Positions 1,862 through 43,942 of a stretch of DNA of 64,000 bases are shown in pieces. Position 1 is the stretch's first letter. Each line of letters starts with the position of its first letter. The stretch covers positions 1,488,001 through 1,552,000 of the forward strand of contig NZ_CP045417.1 in NCBI RefSeq assembly GCF_009363755.1, read 5' to 3'. Made by a program: the position numbers and the translations under genes. The stretch is from Halomonas sp. THAF5a (GTDB lineage Bacteria; Pseudomonadota; Gammaproteobacteria; Pseudomonadales; Halomonadaceae). The notes beneath the pieces are model-generated. The model was given only the letters and a program-made list of their open reading frames with translations, was not told the origin of the DNA and made no database searches.

Positions 1862-1898
1862 GTGGAAGGCCATTTGGAACGGATCATTGAGAGGAAGC

Positions 1899-1990
1899 CG
1901 GGGGCAGGCCGGAGAAGAGGTCCTACGCCATGGATGGCGTCGGAAGCGCCCAGGGAAGGGTTCACAGCGCCTCTTCGGAGGCCTGCCGAC
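1899..1990 (+). repeat. Dispersed intergenic repeat, family B, copy 1
   Basis: This segment is bounded by outer arms GGCAGGCC (1903-1910) and GGCCTGCC (1980-1987). Inside is a small hairpin, ACGCCA-TGGA-TGGCGT. The same sequence, inverted and about 15 bases longer, is found at 32125-32235. The shared parts include GGTCCTACGCCA, GGATGGCGTCGG, AGCGCCCAGGGA and GGGTTCACAGCGCCTC. It lies downstream of the NYN gene and 95 bases before ybiT. It does not encode a protein and resembles a non-autonomous repeat. Confidence 0.85.
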
Positions 1991-2084
1991 GGATCCTGGA
2001 GTAATCCCCAAGAGGGTCAGGATGTGAGCGGCGGCGATTAACGGGTACAATCGCGCCCCCTTCACGCACTGACTGGACGCTTCA

Positions 2085-22091: not shown

Positions 22092-22293
22092 CTCGGTGTT
22101 CCTTCTTCTTGGGGTTGGCTTCCGGCTCCAGGCTCCGTCAGCGCTGCGTCCTTGCAGCCCGGCAGAGTGCGATGCCCGTCCAGTATAGGACGAAATGATG
22201 TGAATTTTCATGCCTTTGTCGCGCCCCTGTGGGGGCTCCCCACGAATGAGGTGACGATATCGACATGTTCGAAGGTGGTGGTGCCTCATGCGA

Positions 22294-22399
22294 GCACGGT
22301 GCCGCGCCCTTGGGGTCTGACCCCGCTACTGCGTGTTCCACCAATCTTTTAAGATAACTGAGAAATCAACAGCATGGGGGTCAGACCCCAAGGGCTACG
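22294..22399 (+). repeat. 105-bp palindrome-bounded element, copy 1
   Basis: Two 13-bp cores, GGGGTCTGACCCC (22312-22324) and GGGGTCAGACCCC (22377-22389), face each other 52 bases apart. Outside them are GCACGGTGCCGCGCCCTT on the left and AAGGGCTACG on the right. The same organisation in reverse orientation is at 38546-38650. The element lies in the 370-base gap between holA and the PA2779-type gene; the rest of that gap (22092-22293 and 22400-22461) shows only a GTGGGG/CCCCAC hairpin at 22228-22243 and a possible promoter. Confidence 0.88.
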
Positions 22400-22461
22400 T
22401 CGAGCCCTCGGGCGTCCAGCGGGACAGGAGCTCTCAGGGGCTGATCCACGGGGCCGTGCCA

Positions 22462-23517
22462 TCAGCCGACGCGGTAGGAGGAGGGCAGCTCGGCCAGCAG
22501 GCCCCGCCCGCCGGCCAGCGTCAGCGCCAGGTCGTGCAGGCCGTCCCACAGCGGCACGCGGCTGCCGCCCTTGATGGCGAGGTCCAGGCGCTGGGCGAAG
22601 AGCAGCAGCTTGTGCAGCCGCTTCAATGGCAGCCGGGCGATGGCCTGCTGGTAGGCGGGGCGGCGTTTCTCGAAGATCGGCGGTTTCTGGGCCTTGCAGG
22701 CGTGCTCCAGGCTCTGGCCCTGGTCCAGATGCTGGTGCAGGGAGAGCAGGATGCGCAGCTCCCGGGCCAGGGCCCACAGCACGATGGGCGCCTCGACGCC
22801 CTCGCCGCGCAGGCCGGCCACGATGCGGGAGACCCGGGCGCGCTCGCCCTTCAGGCAGGCGTCCATCAGGGTGAAGACGTCGTAGCGGGCGCTGTCCTCG
22901 ACGCCGCCGGCCACCTCGCGGGGGCCGACGCGGGCGCCCGGCGGCAGCAGCAGGGCGAGCTTCTGCAGCTCCTGGTCGGCGGCCAGCAGGTTGCCCTCGG
23001 TGCGCTCGCCGAGCAGGCGGGCGGCATCGAGGTCCAGCGTGAGGCCGTGGCGACCGGCCCGGTCGCGCAGCCAGTAGCCCAGTCGCGAGGCGTCCACGGG
23101 CCAGACCGGGACGAAGAGCCCGGCCTTGTCCAGCGCCTTGAACCAGGCGCTCTTCTGCTCGCGATAGTCGAGCTTGCCGGTGGAAAGCAGCAGGATATCG
23201 TCGCCGCTCAGGGTCTCGGCGTACTCGCGCAGCGCCTTGCCGCCCTCCTGGCCCGGCTTGCTGCTGCCCAGGCGCACCTCGATGAGTCGGCGCGTGGCGA
23301 ACAGCGACAGGCTGGCGGCCGCCTCGGTCAGCCGGCCCCAGGCGAAGTTGGCCTCGACGTGCAGGACCTCCCGCTCCTCGACCCCCGCCTGGCGGGCCGC
23401 ATGGCGCACGGCGTCGCAGGCCTCCATGTGCTGCAGCGGCTCGTCGCCGGCGACGATCACCACCGGCGGCAGCTTCTTGGCCAGCGCGCCCTCGAGCTTG
23501 TCGGGGAAGACTTTCAT
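22462..23517 (-). CDS. holA: DNA polymerase III subunit delta
   Basis: 351 residues. Delta is the clamp-loader wrench that opens the beta sliding clamp. It begins MKVFPDKLEGALAKKLPPVVIVAGDEPL, matching the HolA N-terminus. LSLFATRRLIEVRLGS carries the beta-binding region and RTEGNLLAADQELQKLALL the lid. The length is normal. In related genomes leuS-lptE-holA is a tight operon; here 98 bases holding three palindromic repeats separate lptE from holA. Confidence 0.95.
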   Translation of the reverse strand: MKVFPDKLEGALAKKLPPVVIVAGDEPLQHMEACDAVRHAARQAGVEEREVLHVEANFAWGRLTEAAASLSLFATRRLIEVRLGSSKPGQEGGKALREYAETLSGDDILLLSTGKLDYREQKSAWFKALDKAGLFVPVWPVDASRLGYWLRDRAGRHGLTLDLDAARLLGERTEGNLLAADQELQKLALLLPPGARVGPREVAGGVEDSARYDVFTLMDACLKGERARVSRIVAGLRGEGVEAPIVLWALARELRILLSLHQHLDQGQSLEHACKAQKPPIFEKRRPAYQQAIARLPLKRLHKLLLFAQRLDLAIKGGSRVPLWDGLHDLALTLAGGRGLLAELPSSYRVG

Positions 23518-23535
23518 GGATGTCTCTTCACAGGC

Positions 23536-23606
23536 CCTTGGGGTCAGACCCCAAAGGAGGCTTTAGGGTCAGACCCTTAAGGATGCTTTGGGGTCTGACC
23601 CCGCCG
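23536..23606. repeat. Three-unit palindromic array between lptE and holA
   Basis: Cores at 23540-23552 (GGGGTCAGACCCC), 23565-23577 (AGGGTCAGACCCT) and 23590-23602 (GGGGTCTGACCCC). Starts are exactly 25 bases apart. The two 12-base spacers, AAAGGAGGCTTT and TAAGGATGCTTT, extend each palindrome by AAAG/CTTT arms. Any lptE-holA transcript would carry three successive hairpins here. Confidence 0.92.
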
Positions 23607-23615
23607 GCGTTTGCG

Positions 23616-24104
23616 TCATTCGCCCAGGGCGCGGAGGCGGTTCAGCAGCTGCCGGGTCGCCTCGCCACGCAGCCGCTCGCGCACGGCCTCGCGCTCGACG
23701 TCCTGGGACAGCAACTCGTCGTCGTTGACCGTCAGCCGTTCGCTGACGGACAGGCGCTGCTGATCGAGCAGGTAGGCACCGTCGACGCGGCGCTGGACCG
23801 AGAAGGGGACCTCCAGGGTCATCTCCAGCTCGCGCGGCCCGCTTTCGAGCCCGCCCAGGCGCCGCTCGCTGAAGGCCTCGTTGCCGAGGGTGAGCACCCG
23901 CGGGGCGTCGTCATGCAACCGGGTGCCGGCACCTTCGAGGCGCCGGGTGACCAGGCGACGAAGCGCGGTCTCCGGCCCCGCCAGGGCCAGGGCGTCGAGG
24001 CTCACCAGTGGCTGGTCGTAGCCGCGCAGGCGAAAGCCGCAACCGGCAATCGCCAGGGAGGCGCCGGCGGCGAGGCCGAGGCGCAGGAGGTGTCGGCGCT
24101 GCAT
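23616..24104 (-). CDS. lptE: LPS-assembly lipoprotein LptE
   Basis: 162 residues. The N-terminus RRHLLRLGLAAGASLAIAGC is a lipoprotein signal with lipobox IAGC, followed by GFRLRGYDQ, the usual LptE opening. LptE plugs the LptD barrel and delivers lipopolysaccharide to the outer leaflet. Overall identity is supported mainly by the signal/GFxLRG start and the position between leuS and holA. ATG 24104 is 38 bases from the leuS stop. Confidence 0.92.
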   Translation of the reverse strand: MQRRHLLRLGLAAGASLAIAGCGFRLRGYDQPLVSLDALALAGPETALRRLVTRRLEGAGTRLHDDAPRVLTLGNEAFSERRLGGLESGPRELEMTLEVPFSVQRRVDGAYLLDQQRLSVSERLTVNDDELLSQDVEREAVRERLRGEATRQLLNRLRALGE

Positions 24105-24142
24105 GGGTCAGTCTCCCGTCTGGCGCAATGAGGGGTGGGCGA

Positions 24143-28829
<4,687 letters not shown>

Positions 28830-28903
28830 ATGGTGAGCAGTCTAAACAATTCGCCGCCGGGCTGTCTCGGGCCCGGCGGCGGGCATCTGGACGGCGTCCG
28901 GCC

Positions 28904-29797
28904 TCAGCCCCACGCCCGGGCGGCCGGCTCCCGGGCCTCGTCGAGCTGTGCGAGCATCGCCCGGGCGGCATTGGAGCGGGTGCGGCTGCGGTGGACGAGA
29001 TAGCCCAGCGGGCGATGGATCGGCGGATGGTCCACCGCCAGCTCGTGCAGCTCGCCCGCCACCAGGCGCTCGGGCAGCAGGCTCCAGCCCAGGCCGATGG
29101 CGGTCATCATCTTCAGGGTCTCCAGGTAGTTGGTGGAGAGTGCCACGGGAAGCGTTAGGCCGGCCGAGGCGAAGCGCGACTCGATCAGGCTGCGGGTGAA
29201 GGTCAGCGGCCCCGGCAGCACCGCATCGAAGGCGCAGAGCTCGTGGAGTCCCAGCCGGCCGTGCTCGGCCAGGGGATGGTCCGGGGCGCAGACGAAGCAG
29301 AGCCGGTCGATCCATACCGGCACCGCCTCGAGCTGTGGGTCCGGGTGGGGGGCGAGGGTCACCACCGCGAGCTCCAGTTCGCCGTCCAGTACCCCCTGGT
29401 AGGCCTGCTCGGAGTCCAGGAAGTGCAGGTCGAGGCGCACGTCCGGGTGCTGGCCGGTATAGGCCTTGAGCAGCGGCGGCAGCCGATGCAGACCGATATG
29501 GTGGCTGGTGGCCAGGGTGAGGCTGCCGGCCACGCTGTCTTCGAGGTTGCCCAGGGCCCGGCGGCTGTCGTCGACCATCACCAGGATCTGCCGGGCCCGG
29601 GGGAGCAGCACCCGGCCGGCCTCGGTGAGGCTCACGCGACGGCCGATGCGATCGAAGAGGCGGGCGTCGATCTGCCCCTCCAGCACCGCGATCCGCTTGC
29701 TCACCGCCGGCTGGGTGAGGTGCAGCTGCTCGGCGGCCCGCGAGAAGCTGCCGCTGTCCGCCACCGCGAGAAAGGCCTGCAGGCTCTGGGTATCCAC
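28904..29797 (-). CDS. LysR-family transcriptional regulator, divergent from leuC
   Basis: 297 residues. The N-terminal winged helix-turn-helix (SLQAFLAVADSGSFSRAAEQLHLTQPAVSKRIAVLE) and a periplasmic-binding-like effector domain are complete. The start is GTG 29797 (protein MDTQSLQAF...), since AGGAGA lies 7 bases upstream; an in-frame ATG at 29815 has no ribosome site and would add MLRRPG. A LysR gene divergent from leuC is also present in Pseudomonas. It is likely to control leuCD, possibly with an isopropylmalate-type co-inducer, by analogy with LeuO/LeuR-like systems; that is inference. The TATGGA/TCCATA dyad at 29879-29896 is a candidate site. Confidence 0.9.
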   Translation of the reverse strand: MDTQSLQAFLAVADSGSFSRAAEQLHLTQPAVSKRIAVLEGQIDARLFDRIGRRVSLTEAGRVLLPRARQILVMVDDSRRALGNLEDSVAGSLTLATSHHIGLHRLPPLLKAYTGQHPDVRLDLHFLDSEQAYQGVLDGELELAVVTLAPHPDPQLEAVPVWIDRLCFVCAPDHPLAEHGRLGLHELCAFDAVLPGPLTFTRSLIESRFASAGLTLPVALSTNYLETLKMMTAIGLGWSLLPERLVAGELHELAVDHPPIHRPLGYLVHRSRTRSNAARAMLAQLDEAREPAARAWG

Positions 29798-29820
29798 GCC
29801 GGGTCTCCTAAGCATCCATT

Positions 29821-29858
29821 GGGGTCAGACCCCACGGTAAACTTTGGGGTCTGACCCC
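29821..29858. repeat. Two-unit palindromic array in the lysR-leuC interval
   Basis: Cores GGGGTCAGACCCC (29821-29833) and GGGGTCTGACCCC (29846-29858), 25 bases start to start, with spacer ACGGTAAACTTT. The array begins 24 bases upstream of the LysR GTG and so would sit in its 5' leader or promoter. Confidence 0.92.
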
Positions 29859-29878
29859 GAAGGAAGGATAAATTCCTG

Positions 29879-29896
29879 TATGGAATCCAATCCATA
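29879..29896. promoter_or_regulatory. Candidate LysR operator
   Basis: Perfect dyad TATGGA-ATCCAA-TCCATA in the divergent lysR-leuC region. It fits the T-N11-A architecture typical of LysR-type sites. It lies 89 bases before the leuC ATG. Confidence 0.5.
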
Positions 29897-29984
29897 AATA
29901 ACATGAATTGCTTTTATGAGCGAGTGGCAGGACACTACCCTCGAGACCGGACAAGTGAGGGCCCGAGAGCCCGGGAGAAACGAC

Positions 29985-31430
29985 ATGGCAGGCCAGACAC
30001 TCTACGACAAGCTGTGGTCGCAGCACCTCGTCAAGGAGCGCGATGACGGCACCGCGCTGATCTATATCGACCGCCAGCTGCTCCACGAGGTGACCTCGCC
30101 TCAGGCCTTCGAGGGGCTGCGCCTGGCGGGCCGCCGGCCGTGGCGCCTCGACGCCAACCTGGCGACCCCGGATCACAACGTGCCCACCACCGTGAAGGAG
30201 CGGGCCGAGGGCAACGCCGGCATCAAGGACCCGGTGTCGCTGATCCAGGTGCAGACCCTCGACGACAACTGCGTCGAGTTCGGCATCGAGGAGTTCAAGA
30301 TCAACGACCCGCGCCAGGGCATCGTCCACGTGGTGGGTCCGGAGCAGGGTGCGACCCTGCCCGGCATGACCGTGGTCTGCGGCGACTCCCACACCGCCAC
30401 CCACGGCGCCTTCGCGGCGCTGGCCCACGGCATCGGCACCTCCGAGGTGGAGCACGTGCTCGCCACCCAGTGCCTGCTGGCGCAGAAGATGAAGAACATG
30501 CAGGTGCGCGTCGAGGGCCGCCTCGGCACCGGCGTCACCGCCAAGGACGTCGTGCTGGCGATCATCGGCCGCATCGGCACCGCGGGCGGCACCGGCTACG
30601 CCATCGAGTTCGCCGGCAGCGCCATCGAGGAGCTCTCCATGGAAGGCCGCATGACCGTGTGCAACATGGCCATCGAGGCGGGCGCCCGGGTCGGCCTGAT
30701 CGCCGTGGATGACACCACCATCGACTACCTGCGCGATCGCCACTACGCCCCGTCGGGCGAGCAGTGGGAGGCCGCCGTGGCCGACTGGCGACAGCTCGTC
30801 TCCGACGATGACGCCGCCTTCGACACCGTGGTGACCCTGGACGCCGCCGAGATCGAGCCGCAGGTCTCCTGGGGCACCAGCCCCGAGATGGTGACCGGCA
30901 TCTCCGGCGAGGTCCCCGACCCCGCCGAGGCCGCCGACGAGACCACCCAGCGCGGCTACACCCGGGCGCTGGAGTACATGGGGCTCGCGCCGAAGCAGAA
31001 GATCACCGACATCCGTCTCGACAAGGTGTTCATCGGCTCCTGCACTAACTCGCGCATCGAGGACCTGCGCGAGGCGGCCAGGGTGGCGCGCGGCAAGAAG
31101 GTGGCCGACTCCATCAAGCTCGCCATGATCGTGCCGGGCTCGGGCCTGGTGAAGCGCCAGGCCGAGGCCGAGGGACTCGACAAGGTCTTCATCGAGGCGG
31201 GCTTCGAGTGGCGCGAGCCCGGCTGCTCCATGTGCCTGGCCATGAACGCCGACAAGCTCGGCGCCGGCGAGCACTGCGCCTCCACCTCGAATCGCAACTT
31301 CGAGGGGCGCCAGGGCTTCGGCGGGCGCACCCACCTCGTCAGCCCGGCCATGGCGGCGGCCGCGGCGATCGCCGGTCACTTCGTCGACGTCCGCCGGGTC
31401 GACGCCTCACCCGTTGCCCAGGAGGCCTGA
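29985..31430 (+). CDS. leuC: 3-isopropylmalate dehydratase large subunit
   Basis: 481 residues of the aconitase superfamily. The 4Fe-4S ligands are in [10 protein letters not shown] and [10 protein letters not shown]. With LeuD it converts 2- to 3-isopropylmalate in leucine synthesis. ATG 29985 is chosen (GGGAGA upstream; [14 protein letters not shown] is the usual start); an in-frame ATG at 29916 would add 23 unrelated residues. It heads leuCDB; leuA is not in the window. Confidence 0.97.
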
Positions 31431-31433
31431 GCC

Positions 31434-32087
31434 ATGAACAAGTTTGAACGCGCCGAGGGCCTCGTGGCCCCGCTCGATCGGGCCAATGTCGACACCGACC
31501 TGATCATTCCCAAGCAGTTTTTGAAGTCGATCAAGCGCACCGGCTTCGGCGTCAACCTCTTCGACGAGCTGCGCTATCTCGACGAGGGCCAGCCGGGTCA
31601 GGACGTCGCCCACCGCCCGATCAACCCGGACTTCGTTCTCAATCAGCCGCGCTACCAGGGTGCCAGCGTGCTGCTGGCGCGGCGCAACTTCGGCTGCGGC
31701 AGCTCCCGCGAGCACGCGCCCTGGGCGCTCGAGGACTACGGCTTCCGGGTGGTGATTGCCCCGAGCTTCGCCGATATCTTCTACAACAACGCCTTCAAGA
31801 ATGGCCTGCTCCTGGTGACCCTGCCGGAGGAGACCGTAGACCGTCTGTTCGCCGAGGTCGAGGCCAAGGAGGGCTACCGGCTCGACGTGGACCTCGAACA
31901 TCAGCGGGTGATCACCCCCGCCGGCGAGATCCTCGAGTTCGAGGTCGACGCCTTCCGCAAGCAGTGCCTGCTGGAAGGCCTGGACGATATCGGCATCACC
32001 CTGAAGGACGAGGAGGCCATCCGCGCCTTCGAGGAGAAGCACCGCGCCGCGCGTCCCTGGCTGTTCCGCGACTCCGCGCGAGCCTGA
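31434..32087 (+). CDS. leuD: 3-isopropylmalate dehydratase small subunit
   Basis: 217 residues, the swivelling small subunit that completes the LeuC active site. [21 protein letters not shown] and the substrate-binding [15 protein letters not shown] loop are intact. Three bases separate it from leuC, with GGAGG upstream. A 187-base gap with a dispersed repeat follows before leuB. Confidence 0.97.
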
Positions 32088-32124
32088 CACTTTCCTGCTG
32101 CATCTAGCCCGGCAACGGGGCTGA

Positions 32125-32235
32125 TCCGGCGGCAGGCCTGCGGAGGGCCGCCCCACGATGAGGCGCTGTGAACCCATCCCTGGGCGCTACCGACGCCATC
32201 CCTGGCGTAGGACCTCCTCTTCGGCCTGCCGCCGG
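32125..32235 (-). repeat. Dispersed intergenic repeat, family B, copy 2 (inverted)
   Basis: Reverse-complement copy of the element at 1899-1990, bounded by GGCAGGCC (32131-32138) and GGCCTGCC (32223-32230). Against copy 1 it has an extra ~14 bases near the left arm (TGCGGAGGGCCGCCCC region). It sits inside the leuD-leuB gap, so the operon transcript reads through it. Confidence 0.87.
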
Positions 32236-32274
32236 CGCCCCTCGGCCCGGTGATAGTCGAACAAGGACCACGTA

Positions 32275-33354
<1,080 letters not shown>

Positions 33355-33372
33355 CGGCAGAATGGGCAGAAT

Positions 33373-33460
33373 GGGGTCAGACCCTTAAGCAGGCTTTGGC
33401 ATGAAATGCCAAAGCCTGCTTAAGGGTCTGACCCCTGTGCCTTTTTAAGGGTCTGACCCC
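33373..33460. repeat. Four-unit palindromic array including a perfect 30-bp-arm cruciform
   Basis: Bases 33373-33402 and 33406-33435 are exact reverse complements with loop GAA. The array reads as four 13-bp palindromes at 25-base steps: GGGGTCAGACCCT (33373), GGCATGAAATGCC (33398), AGGGTCTGACCCC (33423) and AGGGTCTGACCCC (33448). It lies between leuB and asd and could terminate or stabilise the leuB transcript. Confidence 0.95.
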
Positions 33461-33544
33461 AAGTTCGCTTAAAGCCGGCCCGCCTGCCAGGCGAGGCCGG
33501 CTCGTGTATAGTATTTCGCACATTCGATTGCTGGAGGACTTCAC

Positions 33545-34657
33545 ATGTTGAAAGTCGGTTTTGTCGGTTGGCGTGGCATGGTCGGTTCCGTGCTGATGCA
33601 GCGGATGCTCGATGACGGCGACTTCAAGGGCATCGAGCCGGTCTTCTTCACCACCTCCCAGGTCGGCCAGGCCGGTCCCGATGTCGGCGTCGACGTGCCG
33701 CCGCTCAAGGATGCCTTCGACCTCGAGGCCCTCAAGGCGCTGGACGTGGTCGTGACCTGCCAGGGCGGCGAGTACACCGAGAAGGTCTACGCCGACCTGC
33801 GCCAGGGCGGCTGGAAGGGCTACTGGATCGACGCCGCCAGCACCCTGCGCATGACCGACGAGGCGACCATCGTCCTCGATCCGGTCAACCGCGGCGTCAT
33901 CGACGCCCAGCTGGCCAAGGGTTCCAAGACCTTCGTCGGCGGCAACTGTACCGTCAGCCTGATGCTGATGGGCCTGGGCGGACTCTTCGAGGCCGACCTG
34001 ATCGAGTGGATGACCTCCATGACCTATCAGGCCGCGTCCGGCTCCGGCGCCAAGCACATGCGCGAGCTGCTCAACCAGATGGGCGGCCTGCGCGACAGCG
34101 TGGCCGGCGAGCTCGCCGACCCGGCCAGCGCCATCCTGGATATCGACCGCAAGGTCACCGCGGCCATGCGCTCGGGCGACTTCCCCACCGACAACTTCGG
34201 TGCTCCGCTGGCCGGCAGCCTCCTGCCCTGGATCGACAAGCCGATGGAGAACGGCCAGAGCAAGGAGGAGTGGAAGGGCTCCGTGGAGACCAACAAGATC
34301 CTCGGGCTCGACGAGCGCCCGATTCCCATCGACGGCCTCTGCGTGCGCATCGGCGCGATGCGCTCCCACAGCCAGGCCTTCACCATCAAGCTCAAGAAGG
34401 ACGTGCCGATCGACGAGATCGAGGATCGACTGGCGCGCCATAACGAGTGGGTCAAGGTCATCGCCAACGACAAGGACGCGACCATCGACGGCCTGACGCC
34501 GGCGGCCGCGACCGGCACCCTGACCGTGCCCGTCGGTCGCCTGCGCAAGCTGGCCATGGGGGGCGAGTACCTCTCCGCCTTCAGCGTCGGCGACCAGCTG
34601 CTGTGGGGCGCCGCCGAACCGCTCAAGCGCATGCTGAAGATCCTGCGCGAGCAGTAA
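33545..34657 (+). CDS. asd: Aspartate-semialdehyde dehydrogenase
   Basis: 370 residues. [18 protein letters not shown] is the NADP-binding start and [11 protein letters not shown] holds catalytic Cys135, the same residue number as in E. coli. It supplies aspartate semialdehyde for lysine, diaminopimelate, methionine and threonine. Located after leuB and before fimV as in Pseudomonas. GGAGGAC lies just before ATG 33545, and a terminator follows. Confidence 0.97.
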
Positions 34658-34701
34658 GGCACGGCCTCGGCGGCGGGCGGCCACCGTCACGCCGGCCATG
34701 T

Positions 34702-34733
34702 GCGGGGCGTCTCCTCAGGAGGCGCCCCGCCTT
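34702..34733 (+). terminator. Intrinsic terminator after asd
   Basis: GC-rich hairpin (GCGGGGCG outer arm, inner CTCCT/AGGAG) followed by CTTTCG, 45 bases past the asd stop. Confidence 0.7.
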
Positions 34734-34921
34734 TCGTTGGTGGCGACGATTCGCGGCGCCCATGATCCATGTCGTATGTTGCAGAGTATGGGATTCGTTG
34801 AGGTGCCGTGATGGCGCGCCATTGAGCGGAATGTGTTACACAGACATCGATGCCACTAAGCATATATGACCAGCCCGTCGCCCGGCTCGAGGCGTCGGCA
34901 GCAACGACGCAAGGGACCCCC

Positions 34922-37582
34922 ATGAAACGCAAGCTGACACTCGCCATGCTGCTTTCGCTCTCCACCGCCAGTCCCCTGGCGTTGGCCCTAGGCCTGGGGG
35001 AGGCCGAGGTCAATTCGACGCTCAGTGCGCCGCTGCGGGCCAGCATCCCCCTGACCGACAGTGCCGGCCTGCAGCCCGGGCTGCTCAATGTTTCCGTGGC
35101 GGACGCCGAGGCCTTCGCGGCCGCCGGCCTTCCGCGCACGCCGCTGGCGGCCAGCGTCAAGATGGCGGTGACGAGGCGCCAGGGCCGCCTGATGCTCGAC
35201 CTGACCACCGAGCGCGCCGTGCGCGAGCCCTGGGTCGACCTGCTGCTGCGGTTCGATTGGCCTGGGGGTCGTCAGCTGCGGGAGGTGACCCTGCTGCTTG
35301 ATCCAGCGGACTACGAGCGACTGCCGGCCCTGGTCGCGGCCCCCACGGCGGCGCCGGCGGTGTCGCGAGAGCCCTCCACGCCTCGGGCATCGGACGCCAC
35401 GCCGCGCCCGGTGGCCCGTCCCCCGGCCGCAGCCGAGGCGGGCGCTCCCGCCTGGGTGCGTCCCGGCGATACGCTGTGGTCCGTGGCCGGCCGGCTGCGC
35501 CCGGACAGCGGCATCAGCATCGACCAGATGATGGTCGCCCTGGTCGAGGCCAACCCGGAGGCTTTCCCCTCCGGCAATATCAACGCCATGCGCGCCGGCT
35601 TCACCCTGGTGGTGCCGCCCCGCGAGGCCATCGCGGCACGTTCCGCCACTCGGGCCGATGAGCTCGTCCAGGCCATGAACCAGGCCTGGGCCAATCGGGG
35701 CGGCGGCGCTCCGGCGAGGGTGCCCCTGGGCGATGCCGAGTCGGCGGCGGCCGTGGCCAGCGCCGGGGTCGAGACCGGGGCCGAGGCGTCAGCGCCCGAA
35801 GGCGAGGTATCCGGGGTGGCGTCGACGGCCGAGGCCGGCGAGCCTGACGGCGAGGGCGGCCAGCGACTGACGCTCCTGAGCGACGCCGATCTCGCCGCCG
35901 AGGGTGGGCCCGCCTCGGCGGAAGCGGCCGAAGGGGAAGCGGCCGAAGGGGAAGTGGACGTGGCTGCCGTCTCGGCACGGGAAGCGGGCGATGCGCCGGC
36001 GCTCGCCCTCTCGCCGGCGGAGCGGGGCGAGGGACAGGCCATCGACCCCGACGTGCTGGCGATGATCCAGGGCGGCGGCGAGCTGACCGAGGACCAGCGC
36101 CTGCTGCGCCTCGAGGCGCGCTGGCAGCAGAGCCAGGAGGACCTGGAGGCGGTGCGCAGCGAACGGGATGCCCTGCAGGCGGCGCTCGGCGATCTGCGCG
36201 AGGAGGTGGAGGCCATGCGCGAGCAGCTGGCGAGCCTCGCCGCCGGCGGCAACGGCGCGGATGCCGCCGGGACGGGCGGCGTGGTGGCGCCGGGCAGCGC
36301 ATCCTCACAGACCCCGCCGACCCCCTGGTGGGGTGCCCTCTATCAGGGCGCCATGGATCGCCCCCTGATGCTGGGCGGTGCCGGCCTGGCGGCCCTGCTG
36401 GCGCTCTGGGCCCTGGTGCGCCGTCGGCGGCGCGAAGAGCCGGCGCCGGTCTTCAATGAGGCGCGTCCGGTGGATCCCGCGACCAGCCGTGTGGTGATGC
36501 CCGGCGCCGATGGTCGCGTCGTCGACGAGACGCCCGCCGCCGGGCGCGAGGAGCCGCCAAGGACTTCGGCGCGTGCCTCCATGCCCGAAGCCGAGGCCAT
36601 CAACGAGGTAGATATCTTCATCGCCTATGGGCGTTATGACCAGGCGCGCGAGCTGCTCGAGGCGAGCCTGGTTCGCGAGCCCGGTCGCGACGATCTGAGG
36701 CTCAAGCTGCTGCGGGTGCAGCTGGAGCAGGGCGATCGCGGCGCCGCGGCGCGCCAGGCGGAGCAGCTGCGCGCCGGCGGGGATCCCGATGTCCAGGCCG
36801 ACGTGGCCGCGCTCATGCAGCGTCACGCGGTACACGCCGCCTCCGCCGCGCCCGAGCGGGCCGTGTTTCCCGAGGCTGACGAGCAACAGCCGCGTCATTT
36901 CGATGAGCCTGACGCCCCGGACGAGGAGGGGGTGACCGGCGATGCGGAAGAGGCGGCGTCGCCTGCTTCCACGCCGGCCGCCGGCGACGAACCGCGCCAC
37001 GACGACAGGGCGGCCGATTCTCAGGCTGCCTATCGTCGGCCCGAGCTGGCTGCCCCCGCCGAGTCGGAGCCCGCTGCCGCGACCTCCGATACCGGCGAGT
37101 CCGTCGAGGCCCACGAGGCGTCGGCAGAACCCGACGAATCCGCGCCCGCGTCGTCCCTCGCCGCGGTGCCGCTCGAGACCGTGAAGACCGAAGAGGGGCG
37201 CGATATCATCGACTATCGCCCCCCCTCCCTGGAGGCGACGCCCGAGCCGCGGGAAGAGACGCCCATGCAGCCCAGCGTGGACTTCACGCCGTCCGGCTTC
37301 GGCGGGGATGAGGCGCCCTCGGCCACGCTGGGGGGGCGTGATGAGCGCACCCTGTCCGAGGAGTGGGACGTCGAGGAGGTGGCCTTCCCGCCGCTGTCAC
37401 GCGATAATGCCCACTTTTCCGCGGCGGCCTCCCCGGCGTCGACACTCGCCGAGGCGCAGCACCTGTTCGATGCCGGCGAGCGCGCCCAGGCCCGAGCGCT
37501 GCTCGAGAGCCTGATCGACGAGACCGATGACTCGGATGCCCGGCAGGAGGCCCGCGAACTGCTGGATCAACACCTGCCATGA
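34922..37582 (+). CDS. fimV: FimV/HubP-type cell-pole scaffold protein
   Basis: 886 residues. A signal peptide is followed by the FimV N-terminal domain (LGLGEAEVNSTLSAPLRASIPL). A LysM-like peptidoglycan-binding module follows around residues 178-230 (AWVRPGDTLWSVAGRLRP), then an acidic Ala/Glu-rich linker and a coiled coil (LLRLEARWQQSQEDLEAVRSERDALQ). A membrane helix lies near 480-500 (LMLGGAGLAALLALWALVRRR), and the cytoplasmic tail holds a TPR-like region and the conserved C-terminal FimV motif (AEAQHLFDAGERAQARALLESLI). These proteins organise chemotaxis, flagella and type IV pili at the pole. ATG 34922 starts the signal peptide; an in-frame ATG at 34850 is less likely. Confidence 0.92.
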   Translation: MKRKLTLAMLLSLSTASPLALALGLGEAEVNSTLSAPLRASIPLTDSAGLQPGLLNVSVADAEAFAAAGLPRTPLAASVKMAVTRRQGRLMLDLTTERAVREPWVDLLLRFDWPGGRQLREVTLLLDPADYERLPALVAAPTAAPAVSREPSTPRASDATPRPVARPPAAAEAGAPAWVRPGDTLWSVAGRLRPDSGISIDQMMVALVEANPEAFPSGNINAMRAGFTLVVPPREAIAARSATRADELVQAMNQAWANRGGGAPARVPLGDAESAAAVASAGVETGAEASAPEGEVSGVASTAEAGEPDGEGGQRLTLLSDADLAAEGGPASAEAAEGEAAEGEVDVAAVSAREAGDAPALALSPAERGEGQAIDPDVLAMIQGGGELTEDQRLLRLEARWQQSQEDLEAVRSERDALQAALGDLREEVEAMREQLASLAAGGNGADAAGTGGVVAPGSASSQTPPTPWWGALYQGAMDRPLMLGGAGLAALLALWALVRRRRREEPAPVFNEARPVDPATSRVVMPGADGRVVDETPAAGREEPPRTSARASMPEAEAINEVDIFIAYGRYDQARELLEASLVREPGRDDLRLKLLRVQLEQGDRGAAARQAEQLRAGGDPDVQADVAALMQRHAVHAASAAPERAVFPEADEQQPRHFDEPDAPDEEGVTGDAEEAASPASTPAAGDEPRHDDRAADSQAAYRRPELAAPAESEPAAATSDTGESVEAHEASAEPDESAPASSLAAVPLETVKTEEGRDIIDYRPPSLEATPEPREETPMQPSVDFTPSGFGGDEAPSATLGGRDERTLSEEWDVEEVAFPPLSRDNAHFSAAASPASTLAEAQHLFDAGERAQARALLESLIDETDDSDARQEARELLDQHLP

Positions 37583-37588
37583 GGCCGC

Positions 37589-38509
37589 ATGACCCTTTTC
37601 AGATCCCTCGATGAACGTCACTCCCTGAGCGGCCGCCTGGCCATGGCGGTAGAGTACGACGGCAGCGACTACTGCGGCTGGCAGCGCCTCAAGCACGCTC
37701 CCTCCGTCCAGGGGGCCGTCGAGGCCGCGCTCTCGAAGGTGGCGGCCGGGCAGGCGATTACCGTGCACTGCAGCGGGCGGACCGACTCCGGCGTCCACGC
37801 GACCCGCCAGGTCATCCACTTCGATCCCCCGGTCCCTCGTTCGGAGAAGGCCTGGGTGTTCGGTGCCAATGCCAACCTCCCGCGCGACGTCGCGGTGCGC
37901 TGGGTTAAGCCGGTCGCCGATGACTTCCATGCCCGCTTCAAGGCCCTGGCCCGGCGCTACCGCTATGTGATCCTCAACCAGCCGAGCCGGCCGGTGCTGG
38001 AGCGCGCCAACGCCACCTGGTGTCGCGACCCCCTGGACGCCGACGCCATGCACCGGGCCGCCCAGGCGCTGGTGGGCGAGCACGACTTCTCGAGCTTCCG
38101 TGCGGCCGGCTGCCAGTCGAAGACGCCCTGGCGCCACCTCCACTTCATCGAGGTGCATCGCCACGGCCCCCTGGTGGTCGTCGACGTCCAGGGCAACGCC
38201 TTCCTGCACCACATGATCCGCAATATCGTGGGGGCGCTGGTCACGGTGGGGCGGGGCGAGCGGGGCGACGACTACCTGGCCGAGCTCATGGCTCTGAAGG
38301 ACCGTTCCCTGGCCGATGTGACCGCGCCCGCCTGCGGCCTGCACTTCGTCGACTCCCTCTACGACGAGCGCTGGGGCCTGCCCCGTGAGCCGCTGGGCCC
38401 CAACCTGCTCGCCTTCCTCGGCGAGTGGACCGGCGAGCGGACCCTGCCCGATTGCCCGATGGTCGAATTTCGTCGTGGCCGTCCGGTGGCGGCAGGAGAG
38501 CACGCCTGA
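37589..38509 (+). CDS. truA: tRNA pseudouridine(38-40) synthase
   Basis: 306 residues. The core domain has AVEYDGSDYCGWQRL and the catalytic aspartate Asp66 in CSGRTDSGVHA; FHARFKALARRYRY and FLHHMIRNIVG are also standard. It modifies uridines 38-40 in the anticodon arm. It starts 6 bases after fimV and is followed by the 105-bp repeat element. Confidence 0.97.
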   Translation: MTLFRSLDERHSLSGRLAMAVEYDGSDYCGWQRLKHAPSVQGAVEAALSKVAAGQAITVHCSGRTDSGVHATRQVIHFDPPVPRSEKAWVFGANANLPRDVAVRWVKPVADDFHARFKALARRYRYVILNQPSRPVLERANATWCRDPLDADAMHRAAQALVGEHDFSSFRAAGCQSKTPWRHLHFIEVHRHGPLVVVDVQGNAFLHHMIRNIVGALVTVGRGERGDDYLAELMALKDRSLADVTAPACGLHFVDSLYDERWGLPREPLGPNLLAFLGEWTGERTLPDCPMVEFRRGRPVAAGEHA

Positions 38510-38545
38510 TGCCTTCGGTATCACGCATGATTGGTAAGCGGCGAG

Positions 38546-38650
38546 CGTAGCCCTTGGGGTCTGACCCCCAGGCGTTGAGTGCTCAGTCATCTCGGTGTGT
38601 TGACGCAATAGGCAGCAGCGGGGTCAGACCCCAAGGGCGCGGCACCGTGC
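38546..38650 (-). repeat. 105-bp palindrome-bounded element, copy 2 (inverted)
   Basis: Cores GGGGTCTGACCCC (38556-38568) and GGGGTCAGACCCC (38620-38632) 51 bases apart, flanked by CGTAGCCCTT on the left and AAGGGCGCGGCACCGTGC on the right. Reverse-complemented, both ends match copy 1 at 22294-22399 while the interior is largely unrelated. It lies between truA and trpF. Confidence 0.88.
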
Positions 38651-38723
38651 CGTCACGTAAATTCTGGGGAGGCCCTGGGGCTACGCCGAGCTCTTGGACC
38701 CACCATCAGCAAAGGTTTCTCTA

Positions 38724-39359
38724 ATGGCGCTTCGCACCCGTATCAAGTTCTGTGGCCTGACCCGCGAGGCGGACGTCGACGCCGCCGTGGCCGCCGGCGC
38801 GGACGCCCTCGGCTTCGTGCTCTGGCCGGGCAGCAAGCGCGCCATCGACGAACAGCGGCTCGCCGAGCTGAGTGCCCGGGTGCCGGCTTTCGTCACCCGG
38901 GTGGGGCTCTTCGTCGACCCGGCACCCTCCCTGGTCGAGCGCTGTGCGCCGCACCTGGATCTGCTGCAGTTCCACGGTGACGAGACTCCGTCCGCCTGCG
39001 AGGCGGCCGGGCGCCCCTGGATCAAGGCCCTGCGCATGCGCGAGGGCCTCGACCTGCCCGCCGTCGCCGCGGCCTATGACGGTGCCCGGGCGCTGCTGCT
39101 CGACGCCTATCGGCCCGGCGTGCCGGGCGGCACGGGGGAGACCTTCGACTGGTCGCGAATCCCCGCAAGCCTGGCAAAACCTGTTATCCTCGCCGGAGGC
39201 CTGACGCCGGACAATGTCGGCGCGGCGATCGCGGCCGTCGGTCCCTTCGCGGTGGATGTCTCTGGCGGCATCGAGAGCGCGCCCGGCGTCAAGGACGCCA
39301 CCCGCATGGCGGCCTTCCTGCACGCCGTGCGCCGGGCCGACGAGCGGCGCGCTCGCTGA
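38724..39359 (+). CDS. trpF: Phosphoribosylanthranilate isomerase
   Basis: 211 residues, a single TIM barrel. [16 protein letters not shown] carries the catalytic cysteine, [26 protein letters not shown] and [11 protein letters not shown] complete the family pattern (catalytic Asp in LLLDAY). It performs the Amadori rearrangement in tryptophan synthesis. ATG 38724 is used; a TTG at 38694 would add ten residues. It is followed by trpB and trpA, unlike Pseudomonas, where trpF stands next to accD. Confidence 0.96.
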
Positions 39360-39418
39360 GCCCGCGGCGTCTCCGTTCCCCCTTCACCCCCTTCTGGCGA
39401 CCCTGTGAGGTGTCTTTC

Positions 39419-40633
<1,215 letters not shown>

Positions 40634-41452
40634 ATGACGGCCCACACCATGAATCGTATCGACCAACGCTTCGCGGCGCTCAAGGCCGAGGGCCGGCGCG
40701 CGCTGATTCCCTACATCACCGCCGGCGATCCGGCGCCCCAGTATACCGTCGGCTTCATGCACGCCCTGGTGGCGGCCGGCGCCGACGTCATCGAACTCGG
40801 CGTGCCGTTCTCGGACCCCATGGCCGACGGGCCGGTGATCCAGAAGGCCTGCGAGCGAGCCCTCAAGAAGGGCGTGCGGCTCAGCCACCTCTTCGAGATG
40901 GTCAGCGAGTTTCGCCGCACCGACGCCGAGACGCCCGTCGTGCTGATGGGCTACCTCAACCCGGTGGAGCGCCTCGGCCTCGAGGCCTTCGCCGACCAGG
41001 CCGCCGCCGCCGGCGTCGACGGCGTGCTGATCGTCGACATGCCGCCGGAGGAGGCCGACGAGGTCGGACCGCTGCTCAAGGCGCGCGGCCTGGCGTCGAT
41101 CTTCCTGGTCGCCCCTACCACTTCGCGTGCCCGGGCCGCTACAATATGCGCCCACGGCGAGGGCTACCTCTACTATGTTTCGCTGAAGGGCGTGACCGGC
41201 TCGGCGACCCTCAATGCCGACGACGTGGCCGAGCATCTGGCGCCGCTGCGTGAGATGACCGATCTGCCGCTGTGCGTGGGCTTCGGCATCCGCGATGGCG
41301 CCTCGGCCGCCGAGGTGGGCAAGGTGGCCGACGGCGTGATCGTCGGCTCGGCGCTGGTCAACCGCATCGCCGAGAACGCCGAGCAACCCGAGGCGATCCC
41401 TGCCGCCCTCGAGGCGGTCCTGGAAGAGATGCGCCAGGCGCTGGACGCCTGA
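40634..41452 (+). CDS. trpA: Tryptophan synthase alpha subunit
   Basis: 272 residues, TIM barrel cleaving indole-3-glycerol phosphate. The catalytic glutamate is in [19 protein letters not shown] and the second acid in [20 protein letters not shown] and GFGIRDG bind phosphate. The ATG at 40634 abuts the trpB stop; ATG 40649 ([15 protein letters not shown]) aligns better with other TrpA starts and may be the true one. TrpB and TrpA form the channelling complex. Confidence 0.96.
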
Positions 41453-41525
41453 TCCTCCTCGCCAACGAATCGACCCTGCTCCCGGCGCCGTCGGGGGCAT
41501 CAGCCTATACGGAAGTGTTTCTGAC

Positions 41526-42542
41526 ATGAGCTGGCTAGACAAGATCGTGCCCTCGGTGGGCCGCATCCAGCGCAAGGATCGTCGCGCGAGTGTCCCCGAC
41601 GGCCTGTGGCGCAAGTGCCCCAAGTGCGAAGCGGTGCTCTATCTCCCCGAGCTGGAAAAACACCATAGCGTCTGCCCCAAGTGCGACCATCACCTGCGCC
41701 TGACCGCGCGCAAGCGCCTCGACTGGTTCCTGGACAAGGAGGGCCGCGAGGAGATCGCGGCCCAGCTCGAGCCGATCGATCGCCTCAAGTTCCGCGACTC
41801 CAAGAAGTACCGGGATCGCCTGGTGGCGGCGCAGAAGGCCACCGGCGAGAACGATGCGCTGGTCGCCATGCGTGGCTCCCTGGAGGGCCTGCCCGTGGTC
41901 GCGGTCGCCTTCGAGTTCACCTTCATGGGCGGCTCCATGGGTGCCGTGGTGGGGGAGAAGTTCGTGCGCGCCGCCACCGTCGCCCTCGACGAGGGCATCC
42001 CGCTGGTCTGCTTCGCGGCCTCGGGCGGGGCGCGCATGCAGGAGGCGCTCTTCTCGCTGATGCAGATGGCCAAGACCTCGGCGGCCCTGGAGAAGCTCAA
42101 GCAGGCCGGCGTGCCCTACATCTCGGTGCTTACCGATCCGGTGTTCGGCGGCGTCACGGCGTCCCTGGCGATGCTGGGCGATCTCAACGTGGCCGAACCC
42201 AACGCGCTGATCGGCTTCGCCGGGCCGCGGGTCATCGAGCAGACCGTGCGCGAGAAGCTCCCCGAGGGCTTCCAGCGCAGCGAGTTCCTGCTCGAGCACG
42301 GCACCGTGGACATGATCGTCCATCGTGCCGAGATCCGCTCGCGCCTCGGTGGCGTGCTGCGCAAGCTGACCCACCAGCCGCTGGTCGGCGAGGCGCCGGT
42401 CGCCGATGAGCCGGACCTGGTGCAGGTGGCCGAACAGGCCGAGCAGGAGGAGCTGCCGGCCGCGGCACCCGCCGAGGGTGAACCGCAGGACGCCGCAAGC
42501 GACGCCGAGCCGAACGCAGAGCGTTCCGACGCGGCGCGCTGA
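41526..42542 (+). CDS. accD: Acetyl-CoA carboxylase carboxyltransferase subunit beta
   Basis: 338 residues. The zinc ribbon uses Cys31, Cys34, Cys50 and Cys53. The carboxyltransferase core has [23 protein letters not shown] and the [10 protein letters not shown] oxyanion region. The last ~45 residues form an acidic Ala/Glu-rich tail beyond the usual E. coli end, consistent with a halophile. It works with AccA (not in this window) in fatty-acid synthesis. Confidence 0.97.
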
Positions 42543-42550
42543 CCCAGCCC

Positions 42551-43942
42551 ATGAGCGAAGATGCCCTGCCCACGACGCTTCCTGCCTGGCTGGCCCGGCT
42601 GGAAGCGGCTCACCCGGTCGGTATCGACCTCGGCCTCGAACGCGTGGCCGAGGTCGCACGCCGCCTGGGGCTTCTCGAGGCGTCGCCGGCGGCGCGGGTC
42701 ATCACCGTCGCCGGCACCAACGGCAAGGGGTCGACCGTGGCCATGCTCGAGGCCCTGGCTCGGGCCCACGGCCTCTCCACGGCGACCTACACCTCGCCCC
42801 ACCTGCTGCGCTACAACGAGCGCCTCCGGCTCGACGGACGGCAGGCCGATGACGCCACCCTGATCGCCGGTTTCGAGGCGGTCGAGGCGGCGCGGCTCGA
42901 CGGCGAGCCGATCAGCCTGACCTACTTCGAGATGGGCACCCTCGGGGCGCTATGGGCGATCGCCCGCCAGCGTCCGGCGCTGGCGATCCTCGAGGTAGGA
43001 CTGGGTGGCCGCCTGGATGCCGTCAACGTCATCGATCCCGACGTCGCGGTGATCACCACCGTGGCCCAGGACCATGCCGCCTTCCTGGGCACCGACCTCG
43101 AGGGCATCGGCCGCGAGAAGGCCGGCATCCTGCGCCCCGGCCGACCCGCGGTGCTGGGCAGCACGACCCTGCCGGCGAGCGTACGCCGGGTGGCCCGCGA
43201 GCGCGGGGCCGACGTCTACGCCCTGGGCGAGGCCTTCCAGCGTGACAGCGATGGCGAGACCTGGCGCTTTTGGGGTCAGACCCCTAAGGAATCCTTGGGG
43301 TCAGACCCCAATGGATACTTAGACAGCAAGGGATGCATCGGTGCGGATGGTCGCATCGCGCTCGCCGAGCTGCCCGACCCGGGGCTGCCGCTGGACAATG
43401 CCGCCAGCGCGCTGCAGGCCCTGGCGCTCGCCGGGGTATCGCTGGAGGCGGCGGCCTGCCGCCAGGCGCTGGCGAGCGTGCGGCTGCCCGGGCGCATGCA
43501 GTGGCTCGGCCCCTGGTGCCTGGATGTCGGCCACAACCCCCACGCCGCCGCCTACGTGGCCGACCGGCTCGCGGCACGCCCCTGCGCCGGGCGCACCATC
43601 GCCCTGATCGGCATGCTCGCCGACAAGGATGCCGATGGAGTGATCGCCGCCCTGGCGCCGTCGGTGGATGCCTGGGTGCCGGCGAGCCTCGAGGGGGAGC
43701 GGGCGCGCACGGCCGATGACCTGGCCGAGCGCCTGGCCCGCCACGGCGCCACGGTCTGGCACCGCGGCACGTCGCCGGCCGAGGCCGCCGACTGGCTGAG
43801 CGCGCGCCTCGCGCCCGAGGATCGCGTGCTGGTCTGCGGCTCCTTCTTCACCGTTGCCGCCGTGCTGGCCTGGCATCAGGCCGATGGCCCGAGCGCGGCG
43901 GCGACGGCCGAGCGGGCCACGCGCAGCGAGGAAGCGAGATGA
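42551..43942 (+). CDS. folC: Folylpolyglutamate/dihydrofolate synthase with repeat-derived insertion
   Basis: 463 residues, Mur-ligase fold. ATP loop VAGTNGKGSTVAML, TYTSPHLLRYNERLRL and DVGHNPHAAAYVAD are intact. FolC adds glutamates to folates and makes dihydrofolate. Around residues 240-262 the protein reads WGQTPKESLGSDPNGYLD, which is the translation of two copies of the palindromic repeat (43272-43309). The insertion keeps the frame, so the protein is probably functional, with an extra surface loop. ATG 42551 lies 8 bases after accD; the last 4 bases overlap the next gene. Confidence 0.95.
   Translation: MSEDALPTTLPAWLARLEAAHPVGIDLGLERVAEVARRLGLLEASPAARVITVAGTNGKGSTVAMLEALARAHGLSTATYTSPHLLRYNERLRLDGRQADDATLIAGFEAVEAARLDGEPISLTYFEMGTLGALWAIARQRPALAILEVGLGGRLDAVNVIDPDVAVITTVAQDHAAFLGTDLEGIGREKAGILRPGRPAVLGSTTLPASVRRVARERGADVYALGEAFQRDSDGETWRFWGQTPKESLGSDPNGYLDSKGCIGADGRIALAELPDPGLPLDNAASALQALALAGVSLEAAACRQALASVRLPGRMQWLGPWCLDVGHNPHAAAYVADRLAARPCAGRTIALIGMLADKDADGVIAALAPSVDAWVPASLEGERARTADDLAERLARHGATVWHRGTSPAEAADWLSARLAPEDRVLVCGSFFTVAAVLAWHQADGPSAAATAERATRSEEAR
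43272..43309. repeat. Two-unit palindromic array inside folC
   Basis: Cores GGGGTCAGACCCC at 43272-43284 and 43297-43309, 25 bases apart, in direct orientation; spacer TAAGGAATCCTT is itself an inverted repeat. Unlike the other copies it is within a coding sequence, and the two cores are read in different frames. Confidence 0.95.

Follow-up and report, generated by a model that had tools for sequence, protein, structure and literature searches.

We analyzed a stretch of 64,000 nucleotides from Halomonas sp. THAF5a (positions 1488001-1552000 of NZ_CP045417.1, the single contig of 3,806,748 bp that makes up this genome; hereafter, the window). Along it a 13-bp palindromic core, GGGGTC-W-GACCCC, recurs at six loci, and we considered its relation to repetitive extragenic palindromic (REP) sequences and to the REP-associated tyrosine transposases (RAYTs). 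The window was searched with GGGGTCWGACCCC, allowing up to two mismatches, and the whole genome with RGGGTCWGACCCY. The first locus (22312..22389), downstream of holA, holds a core pair 65 bp apart, in the order T-then-A, at the centre of an element of ~200 bp whose left end lies near 22236. Three cores at exact 25-bp steps (23540..23602) follow between an lptE-like gene and holA, with a triple at the orthologous place (761561) of Halomonas gemina (G015). An inverted pair at 25 bp (29821..29858) is situated between a LysR gene and a divergent aconitase-family (leuC-like) gene, and here too H. gemina has an orthologous pair (755023). In the leuB-like/asd-like intergenic region (33373..33460), a 50-bp pair forms one long hairpin (z = -13.5), with a third core 25 bp further on; the apex of this hairpin, which spans 33373-33435, is what the initial annotation took for a different palindrome at 33398. 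The fifth locus (38556..38632), again T-then-A with its cores 64 bp apart, belongs to a ~200-bp element downstream of a truA-like gene. The last, a 25-bp pair (43272..43309), lies inside a folC-like frame and is translated as WGQTPKESLGSDPN. That gene (42551..43942, forward strand) encodes Mur ligase domains; the name folC, like cysQ, recB, elyC, dnaA and IS4 below, is our reading of the protein rather than a Pfam label. Rfam and tRNA scans of the window gave no match.

All 14 core starts of the initial annotation are exact. These 14 matches to GGGGTCWGACCCC compare with a mean of 3.86 in 100 shuffles (standard deviation 1.86, maximum 8). Across the genome, RGGGTCWGACCCY occurs 25 times, as against none for the reversed-pattern control, so the core is enriched, and the distances between neighbouring cores have a peak at 25 bp. 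When two mismatches were allowed, 96 matches were obtained versus 66 for the control, and degenerate single copies are hence inseparable from the background. The strict 25-bp period originally proposed holds for four of the six window loci, which step by 25 or 50 bp, but not for the pairs at 22312/22377 and 38556/38620. Likewise, the six loci are as described, but the family runs on past the window, with a core pair at 1552807/1552871 and four more loci much farther away, near 1052, 1912, 3254 and 3509 kb. Altogether, the 25 cores form 11 loci, seven of which (16 cores) fall within 43 kb (1510312-1552883). When 11 loci were placed at random 200,000 times, such an interval contained five at most and never seven.

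Geometry of the core doublets

Close spacings (120 bp or less) between the cores of this genome are 25 bp (seven times), 50 bp (twice), 51 bp (once), 56 bp (once), 64 bp (twice) and 65 bp (once). In a tally of the cores listed for six genomes, with G019 represented by 100 of its 151 cores, 25 bp was found 49 times and 22-24 or 26-33 bp not at all, while 49-51 bp occurred 18 times, 64-69 bp 56 times and other spacings of up to 120 bp 20 times. The main unit is an inverted doublet of 38 bp, consisting of GGGGTCAGACCCC, 12 nt and GGGGTCTGACCCC; longer doublets, at 49-51 bp and 64-69 bp, also exist.

The unit was characterized in 82 pairs, namely, seven from this genome and 75 from relatives, among the matches listed. 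The central bases present a clear orientation bias, being A..T in 67 pairs, T..T in eight, A..A in six and T..A in one. The spacer is constant in length, at 12 nt, and variable in sequence, with 68 distinct spacers among the 82 pairs. As such, unit-by-unit copying and a spacing constraint, first offered as alternatives, are best accepted together. The rule that spacers begin with AAG and end with CTT stands as a tendency, given that 78 of the pairs have AG at spacer positions 3-4, CT at positions 9-10 or both, but not as a rule, since both are present in only 32. Spacer bases near the cores tend to pair, those at offset 4 doing so in 74 of the 82 pairs, and the two central offsets pair in 11 each, less than the quarter expected by chance. 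Folded as single-stranded DNA, 10 of 10 loci yielded stable hairpins (z from -4.2 to -13.7). Neither GTAG nor GTGG was found within 10 nt outside any of the 19 cores of loci of the 25/50-bp type, and these doublets are thus not classical GTAG REPs. The spacing varies by lineage, as the cores at the RAYTs of G093 and G060, which are identical in sequence, are 21-24 bp apart (27 bp in one instance), while one G086 copy has its cores at 26 bp; G093 also carries four 25-bp pairs elsewhere in its genome. This fixed spacing is the least explained part of the family.

Slippage or gene conversion could, in principle, generate 25-bp arrays by tandem copying with no transposase involved, and the triples at 25-bp steps (23540 in the window and 604682 in G019) are in line with such a process. 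However, the 25-bp loci listed mostly consist of one doublet each and are often separated by kilobases, their spacers are largely distinct, and some sites are empty in relatives. We consider this explanation highly improbable, and the weakest of those weighed here.

The 65- and 64-bp pairs of the window form the middle of the ~200-bp element, which is a distinct version of the family with further copies at 1552807 in this genome and, within the stretches compared, in G015 and G004. H. gemina lacks all three copies found here. The 22312 site measures ~240 bp in our genome versus ~30 bp in H. gemina, and the 38556 site ~240 bp versus ~25 bp; no clean target duplication was seen in this comparison of the ~200-bp insertions. 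In each of the three copies, GTAG is found 5 nt outside one of the two cores. This motif, the classical REP head, stands at the foot of a longer stem (22377-22399 and 38547-38568 in the window; 798-819 in stretch L017). The outer end of the element (22236-22247) reads CTCCCCACGAAT, the same letters as the end of an IS4-like element in G007, so the ~200-bp element may be a miniature derived from an insertion sequence and carrying a core pair. In G007, the IS4-like element, with inverted ends CCTCCCCACGAAT, itself lies inside the loop of a core doublet (1913841-1915170; ~8841-10170 of L098); further insertions of this sort are suggested by other places in G007 where single cores stand 1319 and 1512 bp apart. 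An unrelated interspersed repeat of ~100-130 bp was also observed, containing CCGGCGGCAGGCCTGCG and, in some copies, TGTGAACCCATCCCTGG (window 1897-1993 and 32118-32244; ~1569.5 kb in this genome; L075 ~1917-2028).

RAYT genes of related genomes

A Y1_Tnp match is present in 23 of the 38 genomes searched. The most cores among those 38 were counted in G019 (151), Halomonas getboli (G022; 56) and H. gemina (53), and all three have a RAYT-like Y1 gene of ~220 amino acids with exact cores on both sides, as does a RAYT-size Y1 gene of Halomonas heilongjiangensis. The flanking cores are mostly 25-bp pairs or triples; in H. gemina, a single core lies just upstream of the gene and a pair 0.4 kb upstream. 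The proteins match Y1_Tnp (E of 3e-11 and 9e-11) and contain the HuH and Y---NP motifs, as defined in the passages drawn on from PMC6006769, in the form of HVH and YIELNP. The last codons of some of the genes are the core doublet itself, translated as GSDP or GQTP (L053 2651-2688, the 3' end in H. gemina, and L054).

Relatives were also scanned for RAYT loci, and the best 80 were kept. The full palindrome was found within 1 kb of the RAYT in four of the 80, three of these being the Halomonas species named above. The half-site GGGGTCWGA was found within 1 kb in 29 of the 80, mostly pointing inward, with none for the reversed control. A survey of the genus considered 90 genomes, our own included, taking RAYT matches at E<=1e-20 and up to 1.5 kb of flanking sequence. 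Such a RAYT is found in 21 of these genomes, and 14 of the 27 RAYT matches have cores in their flanks. A 25-bp pair is found in 24 genomes, the reversed control giving 0 in each. All 12 genomes with a core-flanked RAYT contain 25-bp pairs, compared with 11 of the 69 without a RAYT (Fisher p = 2e-8), although this result is partly built in, because the group was chosen by its flanking cores. When only pairs outside the fetched RAYT flanks were considered, the proportion was 10 of 12 versus 11 of 69 (Fisher p = 9e-6), and for genomes with any RAYT of this kind, it was 13 of 21 versus the same 11 of 69 (p = 9e-5). Among nine genomes whose RAYTs have no flanking cores, three of which hold fragments, one contains 25-bp pairs.

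A tree was built of 22 proteins, for which open frames were cut at MAR/MVR or taken whole, with starts not curated and fragments excluded. A supported clade (98/96) unites seven coreless RAYTs. The other 14 share a branch with support of 91/95, which we do not count as firm, and 13 of them are core-flanked; the single coreless member, G060a, contains stop codons. The core-flanked RAYTs examined lack the GRR..PGRK tail seen in the other clade. The outgroup RAYT, from G032, also has a core nearby. G032 belongs to another family of the order and contains 26 cores, and its RAYT is 48% identical, with the core ~0.1 kb away (L059 1697). The initial annotation had seen in the cores a likeness to REP/RAYT repeats and pointed to a transposase gene flanked by the same core. 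Relatives bear this out, both in their flanked genes and in the grouping, with one exception, of the core-flanked proteins, although our own genome does not hold such a gene.

Distribution of the cores and absence of a RAYT

Cores crowd around the RAYT gene. At 1-30 kb from it lie 28 of the 100 cores listed for G019 (expected 1.2), 12 of 53 in G015 (expected 0.8) and 23 of 56 in G022 (expected 0.9). Considering only 25-bp pairs within 30 kb but beyond the first kb, the counts are 10 of 17 in G019, three of eight in G015 and two of three in G042. In G042, where the RAYT is at 38 kb, 21 cores are found in the first 62.5 kb around the gene and none at 63-103 kb. The 66-69-bp pairs of G019, among those listed, are scattered over five contigs. 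Accumulation near rayt genes has already been reported for three marine gammaproteobacteria and Thauera, according to the portion of PMC2817692 used here.

Such crowding need not come from a RAYT acting near its own gene, as the region might rather tolerate or attract mobile DNA, such as at the replication terminus. A gene block common to G015, G019 and G022 (599-604 kb in G015) has the RAYT of each genome within ~5-28 kb, and the three RAYT positions are consequently not independent. Our contig begins at a dnaA-like gene, such that 1.5-1.9 Mb approaches the likely terminus. G004 and G007 have core belts without this RAYT, and the belts of G004, G007 and G019 contain an IS4-like element and other repeated segments of ~1.2 kb. 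At the same time, the concentration of G019 pairs within 30 kb of the RAYT is sharper than expected for a terminus domain, and the RAYT region of G042 (whose origin position was not found) has little of that block, yet cores crowd there as well. The terminus was not located by other means, as the one dif-like site found, in G015, has five mismatches, while the GC skew samples of our genome were mixed in sign and the G042 contig does not begin at dnaA. We hold this explanation of the crowding to be possible, though rather doubtful.

In our genome, Y1_Tnp gave no match at E<=0.001, and no RAYT stood out above noise. Of two weak matches (16.6 and 13.9 bits) considered as a degraded RAYT, the better overlaps the beginning of a glutaredoxin-like frame together with the preceding gap, lies in a locus without cores and was dismissed as noise. 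The segment at 1508-1572 kb is collinear with 683-770 kb of H. gemina, where both the 1511540 triple and the 1517821 pair have orthologues, and these copies hence predate the split of the two lineages. The pair at 1912754/1912779, after a cysQ-like gene, is the orthologue of the pair that H. gemina has at 0.4 kb from its RAYT. Both genomes also share the small gene that comes next; the RAYT then follows in H. gemina and is missing here. As orthologous copies exist and the relative has kept the enzyme, the simplest reading, albeit not proof, is that an ancestor of this strain had a RAYT and lost it, in which case the cores here would be orphans. In G007, beside the elyC-like gene that neighbours the RAYT in G042, only the doublet with the IS4-like element in its loop is found; an elyC-like gene that could guide to the corresponding locus was not found in the stretches of our genome that were examined. 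E. coli genomes with REPINs but without a RAYT are known (PMC8049555, in the part consulted).

Some copies lie inside genes. FolC was compared across 15 genomes, and in-frame core pairs were found in the folC-like genes of four Halomonas species (G000, 25 bp; G003 and G015, 68 bp; G013, 67 bp), in each case within the linker that precedes LPDPGLPLD. The alignment shows no such insert in the remaining 11 proteins, five of whose genes were also scanned for cores. A recB-like gene, viewed in a single genome, remains open through four cores, one of them degenerate. REPs have already been reported in recBCD genes, and in recB of two Xanthomonas at roughly one and the same site (PMC3733652, passages on intragenic repeats), and the folC-like gene now joins the genes known to carry an in-frame palindrome.

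These copies bear on the suggestion, made in the initial annotation, of a phased DNA-binding protein, whereby the dyads would be operators or phased sites that recruit a regulator or nucleoid protein. Perfect dyads at a constant 25-bp step would suit such a role, as would the pair at 29821, which is placed in a divergent promoter region and is common to H. gemina. Nonetheless, copies are found inside the folC-like and the recB-like gene as well as behind a stop codon, and relatives have corresponding sites with no repeat. Moreover, DNA makes a helical turn every 10.5 bp, and spacings of 25, 50 and 65-68 bp amount to no whole number of turns, such that the sites are not helically phased. Finally, 25-bp pairs track the presence of a RAYT, as noted for the genus. 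We therefore view a binding-site function as very unlikely.

Taken with the flanked genes of relatives, these observations make it very probable that the cores, as palindromes of REP type, form a GGGGTC family that belongs to a Halomonas clade of RAYT-like Y1 (HuH) single-strand transposases; this strain would have lost the enzyme, leaving the copies orphaned. From the empty sites in relatives, we infer that the inverted doublet is the replicating unit. The RAYT would bind the folded doublet as single-stranded DNA and cut near it, with the conserved AG/CT of the spacer as a candidate cut site only, and cutting and joining of GGGGTC repeats would let it copy or move the doublet, mainly to places near its own gene. 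Loss of the gene in an ancestor of this strain would have left orphan copies, some orthologous to those of H. gemina. CT is given as the cut site of the E. coli and Stenotrophomonas TnpA-REP, and CT and CA for Marinomonas, in the section of PMC8266576 drawn upon; the mechanism of RAYT transposition was described in 2011 as still open, with much left to discover (PMC3116915, as excerpted).

Several results weigh against this reading and should be considered alongside it. Against the NCBIfam RAYT model, the proteins reach 72.1, 65.4 and 55.2 bits, short of its cut-off of 80, and the 25/50-bp doublets lack the GTAG/GTGG head of REPINs. All 25-bp pairs of G065 and G092 lie inside RAYT flanks. Pairs are also present in 11 genomes without a RAYT and in G040, where no cores are near the RAYT. 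In G022, only one of five 25-bp pairs is near the RAYT, which is not significant (p = 0.076). The dense cluster of our genome (1510-1553 kb) is ~360-400 kb from the place of the H. gemina RAYT, and the matching segment of H. gemina is ~116-175 kb from that gene, which leaves the cluster unsupported as a former home of the RAYT. No RAYT home syntenic with the cluster was found in the stretches compared, the H. gemina place mapping to 1912 kb in our genome. Less simply, this genome may never have held a RAYT.

More tentatively, and with less than even confidence, the fixed spacing and the crowding can be joined by picturing the RAYT as a molecular ruler. Two active subunits would hold the mini-hairpins 12 nt apart, such that spacer length stays fixed while its sequence drifts, with a length specific to the lineage (mostly 25 bp, and 21-24 bp, with one at 27 bp, in G093 and G060). 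Since copying would take place near the gene, the density of repeats would record the site of the RAYT even after its loss.

Comparison with known systems

For other bacteria, reports already exist of crowding around RAYTs, of GGGGWSAS ends, of the loss of RAYTs and of REPs inside genes. Judged by the titles listed, we found no description of a GGGGTC family in the open-licence literature, which is not proof that none exists. What the family offers is a minimal unit of 38 bp with one main geometry and steep crowding around the gene, in a genus that holds species with and without the enzyme and in which a second RAYT clade without flanking repeats serves as a natural control. This combination makes the ruler, action in cis and loss directly testable, and the family is accordingly a useful test case.

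In TIRYTs and TIRtrons (Di Nocera 2013, PMC3733652, relevant passages), a Y1 transposase likewise lies between inverted repeats, some with GGGGWSAS, a motif matched by GGGGTCAG in the core-flanked RAYT loci; some such ends are double palindromes, and dimers or clusters of them are common. Here, in contrast, the palindrome is a complete 13 bp, often doubled at a fixed 25-bp step, and the richest genomes hold 25 to 151 copies of it. TIRYTs are mostly placed in TnpA-Y1 subclass 2.1, near whose genes the relevant part of PMC6006769 reports no REP-like sequences. That subclass has a C-terminal helix-turn-helix (HTH) or DnaA_C-like domain; Pfam gave no C-terminal HTH match for three RAYT proteins searched here (E<=10).

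In-frame copies within genes, recBCD included, are likewise known from intragenic REPs and Rickettsia palindromic elements (PMC3733652, same passages). The present repeats differ in belonging to another sequence family and in having a folC-like site common to the four Halomonas species.

In the accounts of REPIN/RAYT systems drawn on here (Nunvar 2010, PMC2817692; Bertels and Rainey 2011, PMC3116915), inverted REP doublets form hairpins, as they do in our family, the RAYT lies between its REPs, repeat number follows the presence of rayt and, in some genomes (PMC2817692), repeats gather near it. Apart from the missing head, our doublets differ from REPINs in their length of 38 bp, as opposed to the 71 and 110 bp that commonly separate REPs in SBW25, and in their fewer copies (25) here, and the genome differs from a REPtron in having no cognate RAYT of its own. 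Judged from sequence, the family would nonetheless work like a REPIN/RAYT system, and it fits the GGGGWSAS type of the TIRYTs.

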